64,000 nt of DNA from the NCBI RefSeq assembly GCF_002286985.1, contig NZ_NSKC01000002.1:186001-250000 (forward strand). The letters are read 5' to 3'. Below the pieces are notes generated by a model. That model did not search any database. It saw nothing but the letters and a program-made list of their open reading frames with translations, and was not told the origin of the DNA. Positions 31,734-63,968 of this stretch are shown in pieces. This DNA is from Halorubrum salipaludis. Lineage in GTDB: Archaea > Halobacteriota > Halobacteria > Halobacteriales > Haloferacaceae. Each line of letters starts with the position of its first letter. Position 1 is the stretch's first letter. A program made the position numbers and the translations under genes.

Positions 31734-32249
31734 TCATATATAATCGATGAAGTCGACGGTCCCCGCGCTCGGCTCGCGGTCGCCCTCGATCGCCGCCCGG
31801 ACCGCGTCCGCGACGGCCTCGGGATCGCGGTCGGTGGTGTCGATCTCGTAGACGTTCTCGATCCCGTGTTCGTCGACCGCCTCCGAGAGGATCACGTCGA
31901 GCGCCTCGCTCTCCGCGTTCTCCTGGGCGGTCGCGGCTGATTCGCCGCGGGCTTCGAGCCGCCGTTCGATCTCCTCCGGGCGGCAGCGAAGGACCACCAC
32001 GCGGTCGACGTCGAACCGGTGCGCGAGGTGGGAATCGAGCACGCCGGACCAGTCGCCGAGGCGCTCGCGGACCGCGTCGAGGTCGGCGACGAGCGTGTCG
32101 CGGTCGGCGTCGCGGTCGGTCCAGAGCTCGTCGTTCTCCTTTATCAGGTCGTTGAGGTGGATCACGTCGTACTCGTCTTCGAGCAGCGCCGTCGCCGTCG
32201 ACTTGCCGGTCCCGGGGGTGCCGGTGACGGCGACGCGGTCGGCGGTCAT
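31734..32249 (-). CDS. AK6/Fap7-type adenylate kinase family protein
   Basis: 171 residues. P-loop GTPGTGKST at the N-terminus, a LNDLIKEN lid-like segment and LRCRPEEIERRLEARG. This is the archaeal homologue of human AK6 (yeast Fap7), which acts in small-subunit ribosome maturation and has broad NMP-kinase/ATPase activity. The start overlaps the hisC stop by 4 bp (ATGA), so they are translationally coupled. Confidence 0.9.
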   Translation of the reverse strand: MTADRVAVTGTPGTGKSTATALLEDEYDVIHLNDLIKENDELWTDRDADRDTLVADLDAVRERLGDWSGVLDSHLAHRFDVDRVVVLRCRPEEIERRLEARGESAATAQENAESEALDVILSEAVDEHGIENVYEIDTTDRDPEAVADAVRAAIEGDREPSAGTVDFIDYI

Positions 32250-33340
32250 GGCCGGGCACCGAGCTCCAGGTCCGACAGCGTCTCGTTGAGCAGGTCGACG
32301 GCCTCGCGGGTCCCCTCGCGCGTGCCGGTCGAGATCCGGACGTGCTCGGGGAGCCCGAAGGAGGTGCAGTCGCGGATGATCACGCCGCGCTCCTGCGCCG
32401 CCTCGGCGACCCGCTCCGCGTCGCCGACCTCGGCGAGCACGAAGTTCCCGGCCGACTCCACGGTCGGGGCGTCCAGTTCGGCCGCGATGTACTCGCGGGC
32501 CCAGCGCGCCGTCTCGACCGACTCCGCGACGTGCTCCTCGTCGTCGAGGGCGGCGAGCGCGGCCCGGCACCCCAGCTCGCTCGCGGCGAAGGGGGTGTTG
32601 ACCCGGGCGTACGCCTCGCCCCACGCCTCCGGGACCACGCTGTATCCGACCCGGAGCCCGGCGAGGCCGTACGCCTTCGAGAACGTCCGGAGCACCGCCA
32701 CGTCGTCGCGCTCGTCGACCAGCGGGATCGCGCTGTCGACCTCGGCGAACTCCCCGTACGCCTCGTCGACGACGACGAGCGTCTCCTCCGCGGTCGCGTC
32801 CGCGATCGCCTCGACCGCGTCGAGGGGCATCACCGAGCCCGAGGGGTTGTGCGGCGAGGTGACGTAGACGATCCGCTCGCCGCCGTAGGCGGACAGCACC
32901 GTCTCCGCGTCCTGCGCGAACCCGTCGTCGGGGGTGAGCGCGTACTCGGCGACCTCGCCGTGGTGGTAGCGGGCGGACATCGCGTAGTAGGCGAAGCCGG
33001 GCTCCGGGACGAGCACCTCGTCGCCGGGCTCCAACGCGGCCCGCGAGAGGTAGTCGATCGAGCCGTCGGCGCCGGGCGAGACCCACACCTGCTCGGTCGA
33101 CACGTCCCACTTCTCCGCCAGCTTTTCCGTGAGGTCCGTGTGCGAGGACTTCGGGTACTGGTGGACGCGGTCGGCGTGCTCGCGGATCGCCTCGACGGCC
33201 GCCGGGCTCGGGCCGTGCGGGTTCTCATTCGATGAGAGCTTGATGAGGTCGTCGGGGTCGAGCCCGCGGTCGCGGGCGACCTCCTCGACGCCCCGGCCGG
33301 GCACGTACGGCGAGTGATCGGAGAGATCCCGTGGTTGCAT
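32246..33340 (-). CDS. hisC: Histidinol-phosphate aminotransferase
   Basis: 364 residues, usual length. PLP enzyme of histidine biosynthesis converting imidazole-acetol phosphate to histidinol phosphate. Visible: KLSSNENPHGPSPA near the N-terminus, SPHNPSGSVMP, VVDEAYGEF and the PLP-lysine motif RTFSKAYGLAGLRVGY, with a C-terminal arginine motif VRISTGTREGT. TATA-like minus-strand cccttaag lies 24-32 nt upstream. It leads the run hisC-AK6-CDP-alcohol transferase. Confidence 0.95.
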   Translation of the reverse strand: MQPRDLSDHSPYVPGRGVEEVARDRGLDPDDLIKLSSNENPHGPSPAAVEAIREHADRVHQYPKSSHTDLTEKLAEKWDVSTEQVWVSPGADGSIDYLSRAALEPGDEVLVPEPGFAYYAMSARYHHGEVAEYALTPDDGFAQDAETVLSAYGGERIVYVTSPHNPSGSVMPLDAVEAIADATAEETLVVVDEAYGEFAEVDSAIPLVDERDDVAVLRTFSKAYGLAGLRVGYSVVPEAWGEAYARVNTPFAASELGCRAALAALDDEEHVAESVETARWAREYIAAELDAPTVESAGNFVLAEVGDAERVAEAAQERGVIIRDCTSFGLPEHVRISTGTREGTREAVDLLNETLSDLELGARP

Positions 33341-52964: not shown

Positions 52965-53798
52965 ATGACCGATTCCGACTGGGGCGACTGGCTGCCGCGC
53001 GCGGTCGCGGACGCCGACCCCGACACGGTGGCGCTGTGGTACCTCGGCTGCAACGGCTTCGCGATCAAGGGGAGCGAGGGGACGGTGCTCTGGATCGACC
53101 CGTACGTCGGGACCGGCGACCCGCCGCGCACGGTCCGGATGATCCCGGTCCCGTTCGATCCCGAGGACGTCGACGAGGCGGACGCGGTGCTGGCGACTCA
53201 CGAACACACCGATCACGTCCACGGCCCCTCGCAGGCGCCGATCCTCGCGAACACCGACGCCGACTTCGTCGCGCCAGACGACTCGCTCGCCGTCGCTCGC
53301 GAGGAGGAGCGCTGGACCGAGCACTGGGACGTGGCGGCGGAGGCGTTCCTCGAAGTGACCGAGGGCGACGAGCTGAAGATCGGCGAGTTCACGGTTCACG
53401 TCGTCGAAACGCAGGACTCCGACGCGACGCACCCGGTCGGGTACGTGATCGAACACGAGTCGGGCACGCTGTTCCACGCGGGCGACAGCAAGCCCTCGGC
53501 GTCGTTCTCGGGGCTCGGCGAGGAGTTCGACATCGACCTCGGAATCCTGGCGTTCGGGTCCGTCGGCCGGGTTCCGGACAAGGAGACGGGCGAGCCGGTG
53601 GAGACGAAGTGGTACAGCGACGAGAACGAGATCGCGGCTGCCGCCGAGGACCTCGCGCTCGATCGGCTCGTCCCCACCCACTGGGACATGTGGAAGGGGC
53701 TGACCGCGGACCCGACCGCGCTCCACGAGCACGTCCGGAGCCGATCGCACCCGAACCGGCTGGAGATAGTCGAGATCGGCGACCGGATCGACCTGTAG
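52965..53798 (+). CDS. UlaG-like metallo-hydrolase (candidate sugar lactonase)
   Basis: 277 residues. MBL-fold with ATHEHTDHVHG (HxHxDH), FHAGDSKPSASF and PTHWDMWKG, the layout of UlaG, which hydrolyses L-ascorbate-6-phosphate lactone. In this cluster it could open the galactonolactone made by the sugar dehydrogenase. That role is an inference. It is preceded by its own promoter patch and followed by a T-run. Confidence 0.82.
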   Translation: MTDSDWGDWLPRAVADADPDTVALWYLGCNGFAIKGSEGTVLWIDPYVGTGDPPRTVRMIPVPFDPEDVDEADAVLATHEHTDHVHGPSQAPILANTDADFVAPDDSLAVAREEERWTEHWDVAAEAFLEVTEGDELKIGEFTVHVVETQDSDATHPVGYVIEHESGTLFHAGDSKPSASFSGLGEEFDIDLGILAFGSVGRVPDKETGEPVETKWYSDENEIAAAAEDLALDRLVPTHWDMWKGLTADPTALHEHVRSRSHPNRLEIVEIGDRIDL

Positions 53799-53834: not shown

Positions 53835-53874
53835 CACCGATCGGTGGTTATCAGCGCCGAAAGGCGGCCCGTGG

Positions 53875-53882
53875 AATTTAAG
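53875..53882 (+). promoter_or_regulatory. TATA box of the coiled-coil protein gene
   Basis: aatttaag, 25-32 nt before the ATG at 53907. It supports this start over an in-frame upstream candidate at 53844. Confidence 0.55.
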
Positions 53883-53906
53883 CCCCTGCTCCGGGTGAGT
53901 CCCCGT

Positions 53907-55715
53907 ATGAGCGAACGGACGGCAGAAGCGACGACGACCGTCGACGAGGACGGTATCCGCGTCGAGAAGTCCTTCACGGACGACGCGTTCCCCGTGCCCG
54001 CGGTGATGTACGAGCTCTCCTCGACCCGCGAGGACCCCGTGCGCGTGCGCATCGTCGACCGGATCCCCGAGTCGTTCCCGATGGACCGGATCGGGTTCCA
54101 CCCGGAGTACGAGAGCGAGAACTGGACCGCCTACAAGGACCACCGCGTCGAGTTCGAACGCGTGATCGATCCCGACGAGGAGGTCGAGACCGTGTTCGGG
54201 ATCCGCGACGACGACCCCGACCTCGACGGCTTCCTCGGGACGCCGGTGATAGAGCACGTCCCGGTCGGCGAGGAGATCGAAGACGTCCTCGGCGCCGGCG
54301 ACACCGACGCCGTCAGAGAGGTGCTCTCCGGCGACCGCGCGACGCTTCCCGGGATGGAGGAGCCGCTCGCGTCCGACGACGAGCCCGCAGTCGACGACGA
54401 ACCGGCGGCCGATACCGAAGCGGCGGACCCGGACGCGGCTGTCGAAGCGCCGGAGGTCGCCGAAAGCGACGACACAGACGATGTAGAAGCGCCGGAGGTC
54501 GCCGAAAGCGACGACACAGACGATGTAGAAGCGCCGGAGGTCGCCGAAAGCGACGACACAGACGATGTAGACGGCGAGGCCGCCACTCCCGAACCGCGGA
54601 AAGTCGCCGCGGGAACGGCGGCGGTCACCCCGCGAGACGGGGAGGAGACCGCGGAGGCCGACGCCGAGGAATCCGAGATCGGTGAGTCGGACGAGCCCGA
54701 ACCGGAAGAATCCGAACCGGAAGCGGCCGATTCGGAGGCGGTCGAGTCGGAGGAGCCCGAACCCGAAGTGACCGAACCGGCGGCCGACGAGGCCGCAGAG
54801 CCGACCGAGGCCGCGGAAACCGCTCCCGCGTCCGCCTCCGGGGAGGGGCTCGCCGCGACGCTCGCCGCGGAGATCCGCGCGGGCGAGGTCGACGACGAGG
54901 ACCTCGAGACCATTCGGTCCGAACTCGACGCGGGCGTCCCCCGGAGCGTCGACGTGCGGATCGGCCGGCTGCAGTCGAGCGTCGCCGACATCGAGGCGTA
55001 CGCCGACGCGCTCGCGGAGTTCATCGACGGCGAGGGGACCGCCCGCGAGATCCTCGACGACCTCGACGAGAAGGTCGCCGCCGTCGAGTCCGAGATGGCC
55101 GCGATCGACGACCGGTTCGCGTCCGCCGACGCCGACCGGAACGACCTGCGCGAAGAGGTCTCGCAGGTCGACGAATCGGTGTCGGCCGTGACCGAGGACG
55201 TCGACGCCGTCACCGGGCGCGTCGAAGAGGTCGACGGGCGCGTCGACGGCGTCGAATCGGACGTATCGACCGTCGAGGAGTCGGTCGCTGACGTCGAAGA
55301 GACCGTCTCCGGCGTCGAAGAGTCGGTCGCAGACGTCGAGGAGACCGTGGACGGCGTCACGGACGACGTGTCGCGGCTCGACGACGAGACGACCGGACTC
55401 GACGAGGCGGTCGACGACCTGGGCGACGACGTGGAGACCTTATACGAGGAGGTCGACGACGCCGCCGCGGGGCTGGAGGCGACCGAGAACCGGATCGAGG
55501 ACGTCGAGGCCCGCGTCGAGCGGTTCGACGAGGAGTTCGACGACCTCTGGGACGACCTCGCGGAGGTCGACACCCGGCTGACCGACATCGAGGACCGGCT
55601 CGGCGAGGACCTCGACGACGTGGCGGCGGAGCTCGACGCGATCGACGACCACCTCGAGGAGCTCGAAGCCTTCAGAAAGCGGCTCAACGAGGCCTTCGGT
55701 CCGGGCGGACAGTAG
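53907..55715 (+). CDS. Coiled-coil protein with acidic tandem repeats, function unknown
   Basis: 602 residues. Residues 1-135 form a conserved haloarchaeal domain (RVRIVDRIPESFPMDRIGF, FEGRI-like segments). Residues about 150-310 are Glu/Asp/Ala/Pro-rich and include three 14-residue repeats. From about 345 to the end the chain is a long coiled coil with many VDEVxxRVD-type heptads (SVADVEETV, DVEARVERF, LDDVAAELDAIDDHLEEL). No membrane helix or signal peptide. Possibly a structural or chromosome-linked protein; the function cannot be read from the sequence. Confidence 0.85.
   Translation: MSERTAEATTTVDEDGIRVEKSFTDDAFPVPAVMYELSSTREDPVRVRIVDRIPESFPMDRIGFHPEYESENWTAYKDHRVEFERVIDPDEEVETVFGIRDDDPDLDGFLGTPVIEHVPVGEEIEDVLGAGDTDAVREVLSGDRATLPGMEEPLASDDEPAVDDEPAADTEAADPDAAVEAPEVAESDDTDDVEAPEVAESDDTDDVEAPEVAESDDTDDVDGEAATPEPRKVAAGTAAVTPRDGEETAEADAEESEIGESDEPEPEESEPEAADSEAVESEEPEPEVTEPAADEAAEPTEAAETAPASASGEGLAATLAAEIRAGEVDDEDLETIRSELDAGVPRSVDVRIGRLQSSVADIEAYADALAEFIDGEGTAREILDDLDEKVAAVESEMAAIDDRFASADADRNDLREEVSQVDESVSAVTEDVDAVTGRVEEVDGRVDGVESDVSTVEESVADVEETVSGVEESVADVEETVDGVTDDVSRLDDETTGLDEAVDDLGDDVETLYEEVDDAAAGLEATENRIEDVEARVERFDEEFDDLWDDLAEVDTRLTDIEDRLGEDLDDVAAELDAIDDHLEELEAFRKRLNEAFGPGGQ
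54441..54566 (+). repeat. 42-bp in-frame tandem repeat, three copies
   Basis: Copies start at 54441, 54483 and 54525. They encode VEAPEVAESDDTDD three times, and copies 2 and 3 are identical while copy 1 differs by one base. Near-identity at synonymous sites implies recent expansion. Confidence 0.92.
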
Positions 55716-55790: not shown

Positions 55791-56696
55791 ATGAGCGAAC
55801 CGGTACCGGTCGCCGTGCCGCGGAAAGGCCGACCCCTCGAAGCGGTCCTCGAACGGATCGCGGCCGTCGGCCCGGACGACCGGCTCGACGGGCTCGCGGA
55901 CCGCGTGAGCAACACCCTCCGGTACGAGAAGGCCGTCACGAAGGGCCGCGTCGACGCCGAAGACGGCCCGTACGAGCGACTGACGGAGTACTCCGACCCA
56001 GACGACCCGCGCCGGCCAGAATTCACGCTGCTGCGCGACGACCGGGACGGGAAGCCCCGGCGGATCGTCTTCGACGCCGCCACCGTCGACCTCGGCGACG
56101 TGACGCTGAAGCTCGTCGGCCGCGAGGAGCCGTTCCGAGCCCTCCGAACCCACGAGTTCGCGCTCGGGTTCGACTCGGCCGACCTCGTCTTGGAGGAAGT
56201 CGTCGGGATCCGACCGGAGGGACTGGGACAGATCGCCGACATCAACGAGCGGATCGACCCCGTCGACACCGACGTGCGCGTGGTCAACGGGCTCGGAGAC
56301 ACCGTCTACCACACGCTGATGGGAAAGCTGGAGGGGACCGATCCCGGGACCGACCTCGATCGGCGCTTCGTCGCGGAGTACGAGGGACCGCTTTGCATCT
56401 CTCCGCGCTACGAGCGGCTCGTCACCGCCGTCCTGGGAACGGACGCGCTGGAGGGCGTCGAGTTCGTCTATCCGAACGCCGACGAGGAGGAGGAGGCCGC
56501 CATCGCCCGGACGGGGATCGGCGTCTACCTCACGGTCACCGGGTCGACGGCCCGCGAGCACGGGCTCGTCGTCGGCGAACACCTCTTCCCCAGCGAGACC
56601 GTGCTGATGCGGAACGCGGCCGAACACGACCCGCGCGTCGAGCGCGCGCTCGACGCGCTCGCGGTCGAGGAGTCGTCCTCGGAGATCCGGGTCTGA
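55791..56696 (+). CDS. HisG-like protein (ATP phosphoribosyltransferase superfamily), function unassigned
   Basis: 301 residues. The N-terminus PVAVPRKGRPLEAVLE resembles the KGRL motif of HisG. Near the C-terminus TVTGSTAREHGLVVGEH (TGST at residues 250-253) matches the HisG PRPP-loop region (TG-x-T-L-x-x-N-GL), and LCISPRYERLV resembles the HisG substrate-binding segment. The loop is further from the start than in HisG (about residue 176 in E. coli), so a part has been inserted. I infer a periplasmic-binding-like fold of the HisG type; ATP-phosphoribosyltransferase activity is not shown. TATA-like gttttacc lies just upstream. Confidence 0.7.
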   Translation: MSEPVPVAVPRKGRPLEAVLERIAAVGPDDRLDGLADRVSNTLRYEKAVTKGRVDAEDGPYERLTEYSDPDDPRRPEFTLLRDDRDGKPRRIVFDAATVDLGDVTLKLVGREEPFRALRTHEFALGFDSADLVLEEVVGIRPEGLGQIADINERIDPVDTDVRVVNGLGDTVYHTLMGKLEGTDPGTDLDRRFVAEYEGPLCISPRYERLVTAVLGTDALEGVEFVYPNADEEEEAAIARTGIGVYLTVTGSTAREHGLVVGEHLFPSETVLMRNAAEHDPRVERALDALAVEESSSEIRV

Positions 56697-57367: not shown

Positions 57368-57748
57368 ATGAGCGACGACCGCCGCTCCGTGAAGACGTAC
57401 GTCCCCAAGGATCAGAAGGCGATCTGGCAGGACCACGCCGACGAGTTGGGGATGTCCCAAAGCGAGTTCGTCAGAACGATGGTACAGGCCGGGAGACGCG
57501 GGTTCTCGATCGAGGGCGACGAAAATCCCGTCGAACCGGATCCGTCGGGGTCTGACCCTGGGGGTAACAACCTCGAAAGGCGAGTCGAGGCGGCCCTCGC
57601 CGACGGGGTCCTCTCGTGGGAGGAGCTCGTCGACGCCGTGTTCGACGACTTCGAGGGGCGGCTGGAGGACGCGCTCGACGCGCTCCAGGACCGCAACCGC
57701 GTCCGGTACAACGGGCGGGAAGGAGGGTACACGCTGATCGATGAGTAG
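57368..57748 (+). CDS. DUF5805-like small regulator
   Basis: 126 residues. An N-terminal strand-helix-helix (SVKTYVPKDQKAIWQDHADELGMSQSEFVRTMVQ, in parts SVKTYVPKDQKAIWQ and GMSQSEFVRTMVQAG) has RHH character, and the C-terminal half (EELVDAVFDDFEGRLEDALDAL) looks like a small winged helix. I recall this as the DUF5805 family, paired with integrases in haloarchaea. It overlaps the recombinase gene by 8 bp, so it is probably part of the same function. Role is not known. Confidence 0.75.
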   Translation: MSDDRRSVKTYVPKDQKAIWQDHADELGMSQSEFVRTMVQAGRRGFSIEGDENPVEPDPSGSDPGGNNLERRVEAALADGVLSWEELVDAVFDDFEGRLEDALDALQDRNRVRYNGREGGYTLIDE

Positions 57749-58775
57749 CGCGCGCGCCCCCGCCGAGGTCGACGACCCGATCGGGTACTTCATCGAGGAC
57801 CTCACCTATCACGGGAAGACCGAGCGGACCCGGGACTCCTACGAGCGCGTGCTCCGCCGGTTCGAGGCGTTTCTCGACGCCGAGACGACGCCGTCGTCGG
57901 CCACCCATCGCGACTGTATGGCGTTCGTCCACTCGCTGCGCGGCGACGTGGCCGACAGCACCGTGGCGACGTACGCGGCGTATCTGCACCGGTTCTACGG
58001 GTACATGACCGAAGTCGGCGTCTTCGAGGGGAACCCGATGACGCTCGTGATGGAGGAGATGGACGAGACGGTGGACAAGGACCCTGCGCGGCGAGACGTG
58101 TCGATCCCGGCGATGCGCGAGTTCGTCGCCGGGGTTCGCCATCCCCTCCACCGCGCGCTCGTCGTCACACTGTTGAAGACCGGAATGCGGGTCGGCGAAC
58201 TCTGCAACCTCGATCTCCGCGATCTCGCCGTCGACGACGAGGAGGTCAGGGGGGCGTTCGCGCTCGGGACCCGGCCGGCCCTCGCGGACCGACCGAACTC
58301 GCTGTACGTCACGCCGGACGCGACGGTCGGAGAGGAGCTCAACGGCGAGGTCCGCACGGCGTCGAACAAGCGCAAGCGGGCGACCGTGATCCCGGTCGAC
58401 GACGAGCTGGCGCGGACGCTGAAACGGTGGCTCGCGGTGCGGCCGGACAGCCCGTCCCCCGCGGATCCGCTGTTCGTCGGCACCGCGGAGGGATGGGGAG
58501 AGCGGCTCGACCCGCAGGCGGTCAGACACGTCGTCGAGCGCCACGCCCGCGACGCGGGGTGGTACCGCACGGGCGGCGGCGCCGCCGAGAACGTCACGCC
58601 CCACTACTTCCGGCACTTCTTCACGACGCATCTCCGGGACCGGACGGGCGACCGCGGCGTCGTCAAATACCTCCGCGGCGACGTCGCCGACGACGTGATC
58701 GACACGTACACCCACAACTGGGGCGATCAGGTCCGCGAGACGTACGAAGCGAACGTCTATCGGCTGTTGACGTGA
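57741..58775 (+). CDS. Tyrosine recombinase/integrase
   Basis: 344 residues. N-terminal SAM-like domain (about 10-105) and C-terminal catalytic domain. Catalytic residues visible: Arg in TGMRVGELCNL, Lys in KRKRATVIPV, H-x-x-R in HYFRHFFTTHL, and Tyr in DTYTH. The position of the second His/Trp reads as Asp in RGDVADDV. It should cut and rejoin DNA like XerC/D or a chromosomal integrase. Whether it is a mobile-element integrase or the host Xer cannot be decided; no att site was recognised. Confidence 0.9.
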   Translation: MSSARAPAEVDDPIGYFIEDLTYHGKTERTRDSYERVLRRFEAFLDAETTPSSATHRDCMAFVHSLRGDVADSTVATYAAYLHRFYGYMTEVGVFEGNPMTLVMEEMDETVDKDPARRDVSIPAMREFVAGVRHPLHRALVVTLLKTGMRVGELCNLDLRDLAVDDEEVRGAFALGTRPALADRPNSLYVTPDATVGEELNGEVRTASNKRKRATVIPVDDELARTLKRWLAVRPDSPSPADPLFVGTAEGWGERLDPQAVRHVVERHARDAGWYRTGGGAAENVTPHYFRHFFTTHLRDRTGDRGVVKYLRGDVADDVIDTYTHNWGDQVRETYEANVYRLLT

Positions 58776-59072: not shown

Positions 59073-60248
59073 TCAGTCGTCGTCTAACGCGGGTTCGCTC
59101 GGCGATTCGTTCGCCGGTGCATCGAGGCGTCCGGTCGTGTACCCCTGCCAGTCGTACCGCTTCTGGAGCCACAGCGCCACCTTGACCAACGCGAGCAGGA
59201 CGGGCACCTCGATGAGCGGACCGATCACGGTCGCGAACGCGACCCCGGAACCGACGCCGAACACCGCGACGGCGACGGCGATCGCGAGCTCGAAGTTATT
59301 TGAGGCCGCGGTGAAGCCGATGGCAGTCGTCGTCGAGTAGTCGGCGCCGATCCCGCGGCCCATCCCGAAGCTCACGAAGAACATCACGACGAAGTAGATC
59401 GTGAGCGGGACCGCGATCAGGAGGACGTCGCTCGGCTGCGCGACGATCCGCTCGCCCTGCATGGCGAACATCACGATCACCGTGAACAACAGCGCGACCA
59501 GGGTGAGCGGACTAATCGTCGGCTCGAACGTCTCCTCGTACCACTCGTCTCCCTTCGTTCGCGTCCCGACGAACCGCGAGACGACGCCCGCCGCGAAGGG
59601 AATCCCGAGGAAGATCGCGATCGCCTCGAACACCTGTCGCGGGCTGATCCCGAACTCGGAGATCCCCGCGACGAGCGACTCCATACCGAGCAGCGGCGGG
59701 AGGAACAGCGCGAAGAACCAGACGTACACGCCGTAGGTGAGGATCTGGAAGACGCTGTTGAACGCGACCAGCCCGGCGGCGTACTCGTTCGACCCCTCGG
59801 CGAGTTCGTTCCAGACGAGCACCATCGCGATACAGCGGGCCATCCCGATGAACACCAGTCCGAGGAAGAACTCGGGACGGGCCGGGAGTCCGGGAACGAG
59901 ACCGCTGAAGAACACGATCGCGAGCCCGAACATGAGGGTCGGCCCGATGAGCCAGTTCTGGACGAGGCTCAGTCCAAGCACCTTCACGTTCTTGAAGACG
60001 GCGGGAAGCTGTCCGTAGTTGACCTTCGCCAGCGGCGGGTACATCATCACCACCAGTCCGATCTCCACGAGGTGGAGGTCCTGTATCGGCCCCGTGACCG
60101 AGGGTGCGACGTAGCCCAGACCGATTCCGACCGCCATTGCACCGAAGATCCAGACGGTGAGATACTTGTCGAGGAAGTCCATCGAACGCGGGTCGCCGCA
60201 GGCTTCGCAGTCGCAGTCCGGCCCGTGTTCGTGGGGAGCGTCGCTCAC
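59073..60248 (-). CDS. acr3: Arsenite efflux transporter ACR3
   Basis: 391 residues, ten membrane helices (bile/arsenite/riboflavin transporter superfamily). ACR3 marks: [11 protein letters not shown] near helix 2-3 and the conserved Cys in [15 protein letters not shown], required for arsenite transport. The N-terminus is His/Cys-rich ([13 protein letters not shown]), which may capture metalloid. It exports arsenite from the cell. It is the last gene of a minus-strand run after ridA-like and arsR genes. Confidence 0.95.
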
Positions 60249-60345
60249 GACGGCCGCACCCCCGTAGCGACGAGCGAATCGACTGGCGGGCGATACCGGC
60301 GTGTAAGCGGATGAGCGTTCATAAGTGGTGTCTCGGACGAGGCGA

Positions 60346-60801
60346 CTACTCTTCAGCCGCGATCACGTCGAGCTGTACGTCCGCACCGCCGGGCAGCGAG
60401 CAGACGCCGACGACGGTCCGCGGCGGAAGTTCGACATCGTCGAACCGCGACTCGTAAACGTGATCGATCGCCTCCGCAGCGCTCGGGTCCGTGAGCTGGA
60501 TCTCGAGTTTCATCACGTCGCCGAACGTCGCGTTCCGGTTGTCGGCGAGCGCGGATTCGAGGTTGTCGAGCGCGGTCGAGAACTGCTCTTCGATTGAATG
60601 ATTACTCAATACTTCTCCGTCAATTTCGGGGAGGATCCCCTCGAAAAAGCGCAGGTCTGACGACCCGGTTCGCTTCCCGAACGCTCCTGTATTGTCCGAA
60701 CCGCAGCGCTGTCCCTTGCTCTCTTCGCTCAGCGTCGGATCGATGTTCATCTCGGTGTCGCGATTCTCGTCCGAGCCGACCTCCGTCGTGCGGTGCCCCA
60801 T
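60346..60801 (-). CDS. Rid-family protein (YjgF/YER057c/UK114)
   Basis: 151 residues: a poorly conserved 45-residue leader and a Rid domain ([44 protein letters not shown]). The conserved Arg of the active site is present, but the Glu of RidA proper is replaced (DVQLDVIA), so deaminase activity on imine intermediates is uncertain. It is located between arsR and acr3 on the same strand. TATA-like attttaat lies 23-32 nt before the ATG. Confidence 0.85.
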
Positions 60802-60823
60802 ATCAAATGAACAAATGCTCAGA

Positions 60824-60833
60824 TATTAAAATA
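60824..60833 (-). promoter_or_regulatory. TATA box of the Rid-family gene
   Basis: Minus-strand tattttaata, 23-32 nt before the ATG at 60801. Confidence 0.5.
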
Positions 60834-60963
60834 TTGTGAAAGCCCGGAGGTGCGTCTCTGAGTAACGTCGGCAGCTGGGAAACCTTCCGGCGGGCCGCCG
60901 GTTGAGAGCGCCCGCTCGCAACGCCGATCTACTCCGAACCGATCAGCTGCGGGATGACCCTTT

Positions 60964-61359
60964 CTACAGCGAGCGAGATCCGTCGAGTGCGACGAGGACA
61001 GCGTTCGCGCGCGGCGTGGCGCGGTACATCCGCCATTTCCCCTCCTTCCGGCGCGTGACGAGACCGGCGTCGGTGAGCTTCGAGAGGGCGTGGCTGATCG
61101 CGCTGTCGCTCACGTCCAGCAGCGGCGAGAGCTCGCAGACGCACAGCTCGTCGTCGTCGGCCGCGTGAAGCATTCGGACGATCTTGTACCGCGTCTCGTT
61201 TCCGAGCGCCGACAGCAGCTCGATGTCGGTCTCGAGGTCCGACCCGCCGATGCTCTCGTTCAGTTCCTCCAGCTCTGCGAGCCGCTCGGAGAGGTCCTCG
61301 TCGGTACAGGAGCCGCACTCGTCGGCGACGTACCGCTGGAGCCGATCGGTCGATGACAT
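60964..61359 (-). CDS. arsR: ArsR-family arsenic-responsive repressor
   Basis: 131 residues. Winged-helix domain with the As(III)-binding motif ELCVCEL in the alpha3 region and the recognition helix LDVSDSAISHALSKL. The N-terminal extension has a further Cys pair (ECGSC). It represses in the absence of As(III) and is released by it. An operator-like dyad overlaps its promoter (61361-61382), so it is probably autoregulated. The start at 61359 is chosen over a GTG two codons upstream because the dyad would otherwise be in the coding part. Confidence 0.93.
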   Translation of the reverse strand: MSSTDRLQRYVADECGSCTDEDLSERLAELEELNESIGGSDLETDIELLSALGNETRYKIVRMLHAADDDELCVCELSPLLDVSDSAISHALSKLTDAGLVTRRKEGKWRMYRATPRANAVLVALDGSRSL

Positions 61360-61360
61360 A

Positions 61361-61382
61361 CTCACAATTGAATCGATGTGAG
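61361..61382 (-). promoter_or_regulatory. Probable ArsR operator at the arsR promoter
   Basis: CTCACA-N10-TGTGAG is a perfect 6-bp inverted repeat that ends 2 bp from the arsR start. It contains CAATTGAATCGAT (61365-61377), also found at the arsD promoter. The TATA-like element (agattaag, 61381-61388 on the plus strand) abuts it. Confidence 0.6.
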
Positions 61383-61571
61383 ATTAAGCGTTATGGCCCA
61401 TCACGCAATTGCAGTTACGATTCGACGAACAGTTTATCACTCCCTTATTCCTGACGCAGTCTCGTTTCGGGCGGCTCAAATGAGTAGGAGCGGAACCCTC
61501 GCTTTAACCCCGTTTAAATGCTTCACCACGATATTTTTTTGATGTGCGCAACGGACAGACCGATCGGAGGG

Positions 61572-61581
61572 TTTATATTTA
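61572..61581 (+). promoter_or_regulatory. TATA box of the arsDA operon
   Basis: tttatattta, about 100 nt before arsD. A start near 61604 would give a leader of about 75 nt. Confidence 0.5.
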
Positions 61582-61590
61582 TCTGAGAAA

Positions 61591-61608
61591 TTGTTCAATT
61601 GAATCGAT
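61591..61608 (+). promoter_or_regulatory. Probable ArsR operator at the arsDA promoter
   Basis: Contains the palindrome TTCAATTGAA (61594-61603) and the 13-nt CAATTGAATCGAT (61596-61608) shared with the arsR operator. It overlaps the expected transcription start. Confidence 0.6.
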
Positions 61609-61679
61609 CAGAAAGGGAACGCAGCGTTAGCCCTTGTCGCGACGGCGACTCAGGCGATCGACGACACTCCGACACCACC

Positions 61680-62009
61680 ATGACCGAACTCACCCTCTAC
61701 GAAGAAGCGATGTGTTGCTCCACCGGCGTCTGTGGCCCCGACCCCGACGACGAGCTCGTCGAGGTCAGCGCGGCGCTCGACCAGCTCGAGGACGCGTTCG
61801 ACGACCTCGAGGTGACGCGGGCGAACATGCAGCACAACATCGACCAGTTCCTCGAGACACAGCGCATCTACGACCGCGTGCAGGAGAACGGCCCGTCTGT
61901 CCTCCCGATCACGGTCGTCGACGGCGAGGTCGTCGCCGAGGGGGAGTACCTCTCGTACGACGAACTGACAGCCGCCGTCGGCGGGGACGCCGCGACCCAG
62001 GAGGCCTGA
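61680..62009 (+). CDS. arsD: ArsD arsenic metallochaperone
   Basis: 109 residues. Thioredoxin-like ArsD with MCCSTGVCGP near the N-terminus; the vicinal Cys pair and the third Cys bind As(III) and hand it to ArsA. The typical segment VLPITVVDGEVV near the C-terminus is intact. It starts the plus-strand operon; arsA follows 3 bp after its stop. Confidence 0.95.
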   Translation: MTELTLYEEAMCCSTGVCGPDPDDELVEVSAALDQLEDAFDDLEVTRANMQHNIDQFLETQRIYDRVQENGPSVLPITVVDGEVVAEGEYLSYDELTAAVGGDAATQEA

Positions 62010-62012
62010 CAG

Positions 62013-63968
62013 ATGGCACGGTCACAGTCGAACCAGTCGACGAGCGCGCGGGACATCGTGGAACCGAGCGGCGAGGAGACGGAGTTCGTCTTCTTCAGCG
62101 GGAAGGGCGGCGTCGGCAAGAGCACGGTGAGCTGTGCGACCGCGGCGTGGCTCGCCGACAACGACTACGAGACGCTCCTCGTCACGACCGACCCCGCGCC
62201 GAACCTCTCGGACATCTTCGGGCAGTCGATCGGCCACGAGGTCACCGCGATCGACGGGATCGAGAACCTCTCGGCGATCGAGATCGACCCGGACACCGCC
62301 GCCGAGGAGTACCGCCAAGAGACGATCGAGCCGATGCGGGAGCTGCTCGGCGACGAGGAGATCCGGACGGTCGAAGAGCAGCTCAACAGCCCCTGCGTCG
62401 AGGAGATCGCCGCCTTCGACAACTTCGTCGACTTCATGGACAGCCCGGAGTACGACGCCGTCGTCTTCGACACGGCGCCGACGGGCCACACCATCCGGCT
62501 GATGGAGCTCCCCTCCGACTGGAACGCCGAACTGGAGAAGGGCGGCTCGACCTGTATCGGCCCGGCCGCCTCGATGGAAGAGCGCAAGCGGGACTACGAG
62601 CGCGCGATCGACACGCTGCAGGACGACGAGCGCACCTCCTTCGCGTTCGTCGGCAAGCCCGAGGACTCCTCGATCGACGAGATCGAACGCAGCGCTGGCG
62701 ACCTCGCCGAGCTCGGGATCGAGTCGCAACTCCTGATCCTCAACGGCTACCTCCCCGAGTCGGTGTGTGAGGATCCCTTCTTCGAGGCCAAGCGCGCGGA
62801 CGAGCGGGCGGTCATCGAGCGCGCCCGCGAGGAGTTCGACGCGGACGCGACGGCGACGTACCCGCTCCAGCCCGGCGAGATCGCCGGCCTCGACCTGCTC
62901 GCCGACGTGGCCGGCGTCCTCTACGACGGCGACGAGGCGACGGTCGACATCGGCGCGGCGACCGACGTCGACGACGGGGGCCGCGGCGACGGGGCGGTCG
63001 ACTTCGACGCGACCGCGGACGCCGACGCGGTCGTCGAACAGCTGACGCCCGGCGAGGAGACGCAGTACCTCTTTTTCACCGGCAAGGGCGGCGTCGGGAA
63101 GAGCACGGTCGCCTCGACGGCGGCGACGAAGCTCGCCGAGGCGGGCCACGAGACCCTCGTCGTTACGACCGACCCGGCCGCGCACCTGGAGGACATCTTC
63201 GGCGAGCCCGTCGGTCACGAGCCGACCTCGGTCGGGCAGGACAACCTCGACGCGGCGCGGATCGACCAGGAGGAGGCCCTCGCCGAGTACCGCGAGCAGG
63301 TCCTCGATCACGTCACGGAGATGTACGAGGAGAGGGAGGACACGCAGATCGACGTCGGCGCCGCGATCGCGAACGTCGAGGAGGAGCTGGAGTCGCCCTG
63401 CGCCGAGGAGATGGCGGCCTTAGAGAAGTTCGTGAGCTACTTCGACGAGGACGGCTACGACGTCGTCGTCTTCGACACGGCACCGACGGGCCACACCCTC
63501 AGACTGCTCGAACTCCCGTCCGACTGGAAGGGGTTCATGGACCTCGGCTCGCTGACGAAGGGCGCCGCCCCCGCGAAGGGCGACCAGTACGACGAGGTCA
63601 TTGAGACGATGAAAGACCCCGAGCAGAGCACCTTCGCGTTCGTGATGTACCCCGAGTACACGCCGATGATGGAGGCGCACCGCGCGGCCGCCGATCTCAG
63701 AGATCAGGTCGGCATCGAGACCTCGCTGGTCGTCGCCAACTACCTCCTCCCCGAGGAGTACGGCGACAACGCCTTCTTCGCGAATCGCCGCGCGCAACAG
63801 GCGCAGTACTTAGCGGAGATCCGCGACCGCTTCGACGCGCCGCTCATGTTAGCCCCGCTCCGCCGAGACGAGCCGATCGGGATCGACGAGCTGAGCGCCT
63901 TCGGCGAGGAGATCACCGGGCTGGCGGACATCGCCGACGCGGACGCGCCGGAGGTGACTCCATCGTGA
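62013..63968 (+). CDS. arsA: Arsenite-transport ATPase ArsA (two-domain)
   Basis: 651 residues: two homologous halves, each with P-loop GKGGVGKST (start about residue 30 and about 357) and DTAPTGHT. The arsenite-binding cysteines of the family are visible: NSPCVEEI and GSTCIGP in the first half and ESPCAEEM in the second. ArsA drives arsenite export with an ArsB or ACR3 partner and receives As(III) from ArsD. Here the transporter is the ACR3 encoded about 2 kb upstream on the other strand. Confidence 0.96.
   Translation: MARSQSNQSTSARDIVEPSGEETEFVFFSGKGGVGKSTVSCATAAWLADNDYETLLVTTDPAPNLSDIFGQSIGHEVTAIDGIENLSAIEIDPDTAAEEYRQETIEPMRELLGDEEIRTVEEQLNSPCVEEIAAFDNFVDFMDSPEYDAVVFDTAPTGHTIRLMELPSDWNAELEKGGSTCIGPAASMEERKRDYERAIDTLQDDERTSFAFVGKPEDSSIDEIERSAGDLAELGIESQLLILNGYLPESVCEDPFFEAKRADERAVIERAREEFDADATATYPLQPGEIAGLDLLADVAGVLYDGDEATVDIGAATDVDDGGRGDGAVDFDATADADAVVEQLTPGEETQYLFFTGKGGVGKSTVASTAATKLAEAGHETLVVTTDPAAHLEDIFGEPVGHEPTSVGQDNLDAARIDQEEALAEYREQVLDHVTEMYEEREDTQIDVGAAIANVEEELESPCAEEMAALEKFVSYFDEDGYDVVVFDTAPTGHTLRLLELPSDWKGFMDLGSLTKGAAPAKGDQYDEVIETMKDPEQSTFAFVMYPEYTPMMEAHRAAADLRDQVGIETSLVVANYLLPEEYGDNAFFANRRAQQAQYLAEIRDRFDAPLMLAPLRRDEPIGIDELSAFGEEITGLADIADADAPEVTPS

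Follow-up and report, generated by a model that had tools for sequence, protein, structure and literature searches.

A HisG-fold paralogue found across the haloarchaea, with an altered active site and without the regulatory domain

The window analyzed here is a stretch of 64,000 nucleotides from Halorubrum salipaludis (contig NZ_NSKC01000002.1, positions 186,001 to 250,000), to which all coordinates below refer. It contains a unit in which the genes of a metallo-beta-lactamase (MBL)-fold hydrolase, a coiled-coil protein and a HisG-like protein lie on one strand, separated by gaps of 45 and 75 bases. The features discussed in the following are:

32249..33340, minus strand: hisC, outside the unit, ca. 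22.4 kb from the HisG-like gene (TIGR01141, 350.7 bits, above cut-off)
52965..53798, plus strand: MBL-fold hydrolase, first gene of the unit (Pfam Lactamase_B_2, 62.3 bits)
53844..55715, plus strand: coiled-coil protein, the N-terminal ca. 135 amino acids of which form a conserved domain, directly upstream of the HisG-like gene
55791..56696, plus strand: HisG-like gene, 301 amino acids (open reading frame, family alignment, AlphaFold model, PDB fold matches)
55821..55841, plus strand: RKGRPLE motif, residues 11-17, aligned to NKGRL of HisG (invariant in 33 of 33 members; joint alignment)
55869..56057, plus strand: inserted segment, approximately residues 27-89, not in HisG (joint alignment; models)
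56058..56063, plus strand: invariant R90-R91, directly before the beta hairpin (conservation)
56526..56567, plus strand: Y246 to the TGSTAREHGL phosphate loop, residues 246-259 (alignments)

The HisG-like reading frame is regarded as a real gene because it is found at this position and is 64-97% identical to the 80 named relatives that were kept as the best of 215 retrieved in a genome-collection search. Among the matches listed, the closest named relatives are from Halorubrum, with 93-97% identity. The alignment of 33 members of the family has 103 invariant columns, and over a set of 130 sequences conservation reaches 98% or more at 103 of the 301 positions, many of which are charged and located in the cleft motifs. 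In one Halorubrum genome (G097) the copy is in two pieces ca. 38 bases apart (G097:C70:360651-361539; L123, L131), which is likely a broken gene or an assembly error.

The only Pfam family that matches the protein is HisG (PF01634), with 15.7 bits (E 0.015) against a cut-off of 25.5, and the NCBIfam hisG model (TIGR00070) gives 12.2 bits, below its cut-off of 75.75. The Pfam match recurs at E ≤10 in 31 of the 33 members, with a best E of 2.4e-4, while searches of the PDB sequences with the protein itself (phmmer) and with the family profile found no HisG. Comparison of the family profile with that of 34 archaeal HisG proteins in global mode yields an E of 3.7e-6, and the profile match to HisG whose absence would have spoken against the sequence-only reading is found here and, below the cut-off, in Pfam. 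Comparison with three HisG subgroups gives E values of 3.3e-5 (local mode), 4.4e-4 and 0.21, the best being for the subgroup of alignment A3 (see below), and led to no decision among the three as to the parent of the family.

The AlphaFold model, calculated from the 33-row alignment without templates, has a pLDDT of 82.9 and a pTM of 0.78. All 50 matches listed by Foldseek are HisG (best E 9.4e-7), and the best 35 PDB entries found by VIA-align are likewise all HisG, with Z values of 14.3-10.8, the first being 2vd3 (Z 14.3, 198 residues at 3.3 Å). Other binding-protein folds follow below, from Z 8.7 down to 8.1. These matches of the predicted model establish that the resemblance is a true homology of fold with the HisG catalytic core. 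That it arose by chance from two short motifs, as the 15.7 bits and the fruitless PDB sequence searches might suggest, is highly improbable and was rejected from the fold comparison, considering that a template-free model nevertheless finds only HisG among its best 35 entries and that motif order and secondary structure match HisG across the entire core.

In the joint alignment the elements follow each other as in HisG, namely KGR near the N-terminus and, past an insert, the beta hairpin, D/E-rich stretch, LGF strand, GLGDTVYHTL stretch, TGxT loop and helix. The KGR (residues 12-14) and TGSTAREHGL (residues 250-259) motifs noticed in the sequence-only reading are both present, with K12, G13, R14, T250, G251 and T253 identical in all 33 members, and R14 aligns with the KGR arginine of HisG. 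The displacement of the loop, which was also noticed there, is only apparent, because insertions push the loop along the sequence. The segment of ca. 55 residues that is absent from HisG is located in lobe I and consists of two helices and a short strand. A role of this insert in binding double-stranded RNA was considered, as the insert alone (window positions 55872-56156) matches Staufen dsRNA-binding domains weakly (E 0.055; whole protein E 0.24), but it is unsupported by fold or Pfam: no Pfam dsRNA-binding match is found in the 33 members, and a separate model of the insert gives nothing at E <1 in Foldseek and a best Z of 2.9 in VIA-align. The protein stops after the core, and the regulatory C-terminal domain III, described in a passage of PMC5415358 as the histidine sensor of long HisG, is absent.

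The features kept in comparison with HisG include the KGR motif, the TGxT loop, the acidic cluster E233-E235, D131 and E135. The passages of PMC9734150 that concern the P. arcticus enzyme state that E163 bonds the 3'-OH of PRPP and that Arg32 and Arg56 assist the departure of pyrophosphate. In the present family E234 and E235 are invariant and E233 is aligned in 30 of 33 members, the exact match to the glutamate that bonds the 3'-OH being uncertain. The invariant R90-R91 pair is read here, from the secondary structure, as taking the place of Arg56-Lys57 (P. arcticus numbering), while MAFFT places that column elsewhere. The P-loop aspartate of HisG, four residues before the threonine of TGxT, is replaced by Tyr246 in 33 of 33 members. 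There are 39 core positions at which at least 85% of 34 HisG rows agree; the majority residue of the family is the same at 16 of them, one of these (HisG column 33) being doubtfully aligned, and D156, L164 and R50 of HisG have become Y, A and G, respectively, each invariant in the family. Because several residues invariant in HisG are swapped for others that are equally invariant here, a changed ligand, as had been suggested earlier, appears plausible from the alignments.

With long-form HisG (PF01634; PDB 2vd3, 1h3d and 1nh7) the protein shares the two-lobed catalytic core, the two loops, the order of elements and the D-x-x-x-E that follows the LGF/GIT strand. It differs from this form by the absence of domain III, the insert of ca. 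55 residues, the tyrosine in place of the P-loop aspartate, scores under the curated family cut-offs and a location away from the his genes. The short form, which occurs with HisZ, also has no domain III, but neither the insert nor the changed core residues of the present protein. The A3 subgroup from other Halobacteriota (291-310 amino acids, PKGSLE motif), the best profile match of the three tried, is unlike the HisG-like protein in that it keeps domain III and the P-loop aspartate and scores above the PF01634 cut-off. In these other Halobacteriota (L182-L231) up to two full HisG proteins are present per genome, in three sequence types: NKGR (ca. 170-190 bits), PKGS (ca. 140-160 bits, 291-310 amino acids) and PDGH (ca. 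95-108 bits). Many of the genomes combine the NKGR and PKGS types, while some of family f15 have only PDGH.

A search at E ≤0.001 detects the HisG-like gene in 351 of the 391 Halobacteria sampled, a count that includes one doubtful case, the weak partial match of G217 (E 4e-4). No full-length match was found outside the class (392 genomes of the phylum sampled); the seven matches obtained there are partial and below 22 bits, and the four of them that are also among the HisG matches listed (G462, G465, G393 and G420) fall on HisG reading frames. The great age that had been proposed for the paralogue is therefore supported only as far back as the root of the class Halobacteria. The haloarchaea possess a class-wide paralogue with the HisG fold, in which the core is changed and the regulatory domain is lost.

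As the sequence-only reading stated, no histidine genes adjoin the locus and hisC is ca. 22 kb away. The former says little, because hisG, hisI, hisD and hisA/hisF of this genome are all located on other contigs. The normal hisG, for which that reading had advised a search, scores 163.3 bits; together with the HisG fold of the model, it supports the view of the protein as a HisG paralogue and means that the protein is not the only HisG of this genome. In 13 others it is the only clear relative of HisG.

The gene encodes a paralogue of the catalytic part of HisG (type IV phosphoribosyltransferase fold) that is found throughout the haloarchaeal class. The cleft between the two lobes has been kept in it, as have the KGR and TGxT loops, while the histidine-sensing third domain has been lost and some 55 residues have been gained in lobe I. 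In the mechanism that we propose, the cleft would most likely bind PRPP or a phosphoribosyl compound, and the phosphoribosyl group would most likely be transferred to a non-ATP acceptor, outside histidine synthesis. We tentatively favor this reading of the protein as a HisG-fold phosphoribosyltransferase. The analysis establishes the homology of fold, the conservation, the distribution and the gene order, while the binding of PRPP, a catalytic activity and the change of acceptor are inferred. Against it, the tyrosine that all members carry could mean that PRPP is not bound in the manner of HisG, and by sequence alone the HisG match falls under the curated cut-offs. Neither an acceptor nor a pathway was found for the protein.

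An alternative is that the protein is a second ATP phosphoribosyltransferase free of histidine feedback, which would be the sole enzyme feeding the pathway where hisG has been lost and a backup elsewhere. An unregulated form would fit the loss of the regulatory domain, and the distribution of hisG itself gives this possibility some weight. A normal hisG is present in 377 of the 391 Halobacteria and absent from 14, all of which (e.g., G042, G140 and G145) retain hisD, hisI and two PF00977 proteins above 230 bits, assigned as hisA and hisF. The HisG-like reading frame is among the PF01634 matches of 13 of these genomes, in which no protein passes the cut-off and the HisG-like protein is the only clear relative of HisG; in G090 it is narrowly outscored by a fragment that contains stops. 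All sampled genomes of the genera g7 (six) and g17 (three) are without hisG. Three of the six g7 genomes have 100% DNA identity to loci of Halolamina rubra, H. salifodinae and H. pelagica, and g7 is therefore taken as Halolamina. The 13 genomes suit the ATP phosphoribosyltransferase and count against the non-ATP acceptor that we favor.

The figure of 13 of 14 is, however, at the level of chance (Fisher p 1.0), because the family is present in 351 of the 391 genomes, and of the 40 genomes without the HisG-like gene 39 simply retain hisG. The remaining one, G145, has neither gene and still keeps hisA, hisF, hisI and hisD. Its locus matches that of the close relative G140 on both flanks, where ca. 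2.1 kb including the HisG-like gene are replaced by 62 bases, i.e., a clean deletion in which no remnant of the gene was found. Either G145, and perhaps the others of the 14, use an unrecognized enzyme, or G145 no longer makes histidine. Furthermore, only one column of the alignment (75, a variable one) sets the proteins of the 13 genomes apart from the rest, and many of the residues invariant in HisG are altered. We consider a role as ATP phosphoribosyltransferase rather unlikely on these grounds; it keeps a share of the probability because 13 genomes have this protein as their only HisG relative. A protein of ca. 375-425 residues adjoins hisI at seven loci (L270-L274, L278 and L279), with a start that by eye is similar in most of them.

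The HisG-like gene usually comes last in its unit. At 79 of 94 loci the coiled-coil gene directly precedes it on the same strand, at 85 of 94 the coiled-coil gene is within three genes, and the MBL gene is at most three genes upstream at 76 of 94, the 94 being 101 loci minus seven at which the reading-frame picker missed the HisG-like gene. Neither Pfam nor the PDB sequences yielded a match to the conserved domain (ca. 135 residues) at the N-terminus of the coiled-coil protein. Of the 40 genomes that lack the HisG-like gene 20 were listed, and 18 of these retain the MBL gene; the two neighbors are still adjacent at 11 of 18 such loci. Since both neighbors persist without the HisG-like gene, the latter can be separated from the rest of the unit, and an obligate complex with either product was rejected for the same reason. 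At four Halolamina loci (L047, L050, L052 and L053) the gene has other neighbors instead of these two, one of which we take to be a GTP cyclohydrolase III.

The large coiled-coil protein encoded directly upstream brings to mind another explanation, in which the protein would act as a sensor rather than an enzyme, binding a nucleotide or a phosphoribosyl metabolite in its cleft and controlling the coiled-coil partner. Binding proteins share the same two-lobed fold, as seen in the lower part of the VIA-align list, and the loss of the P-loop aspartate would be consistent with such a role. On the other hand, the strong conservation of charged residues and cleft motifs is more typical of an enzyme, and the putative partner and the MBL gene both persist without the HisG-like gene. 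A sensor is thus unlikely.

The reading as a phosphoribosyltransferase with a non-ATP acceptor can be extended, with still more reserve, to a new branch of the HisG (type IV) fold that would be ancestral to the haloarchaea and start an unrecognized pathway. ATP phosphoribosyltransferase forms its own class IV of phosphoribosyltransferases, according to a passage of a review (PMC3896937). A second branch of this fold with a changed active site, present in nine tenths of the haloarchaea, would, if true, represent a new function for the class. The family also bears on the puzzle of Halolamina and some other genomes, which keep several genes of the histidine pathway without a recognizable normal hisG. 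Searches of one open library found no published description of a HisG-like haloarchaeal family, no literature on histidine biosynthesis in Halolamina and, by title, nothing related to ATP phosphoribosyltransferase in Haloferax volcanii. In one haloarchaeal paper examined, hisG occurs only as an E. coli strain marker, and neither HisG nor PRPP is mentioned in the main text of a review devoted to unsettled annotations in Haloferax.

Downstream in the window, positions 57368-58775 encode a DUF5805 protein and a XerA-like recombinase, which overlap by 8 bases; this pair is found close to the HisG-like gene at many loci, in either orientation. Farther on, positions 59073-63968 contain arsenic genes, namely those of an ACR3 efflux transporter and a haloarchaeal ArsA ATPase.
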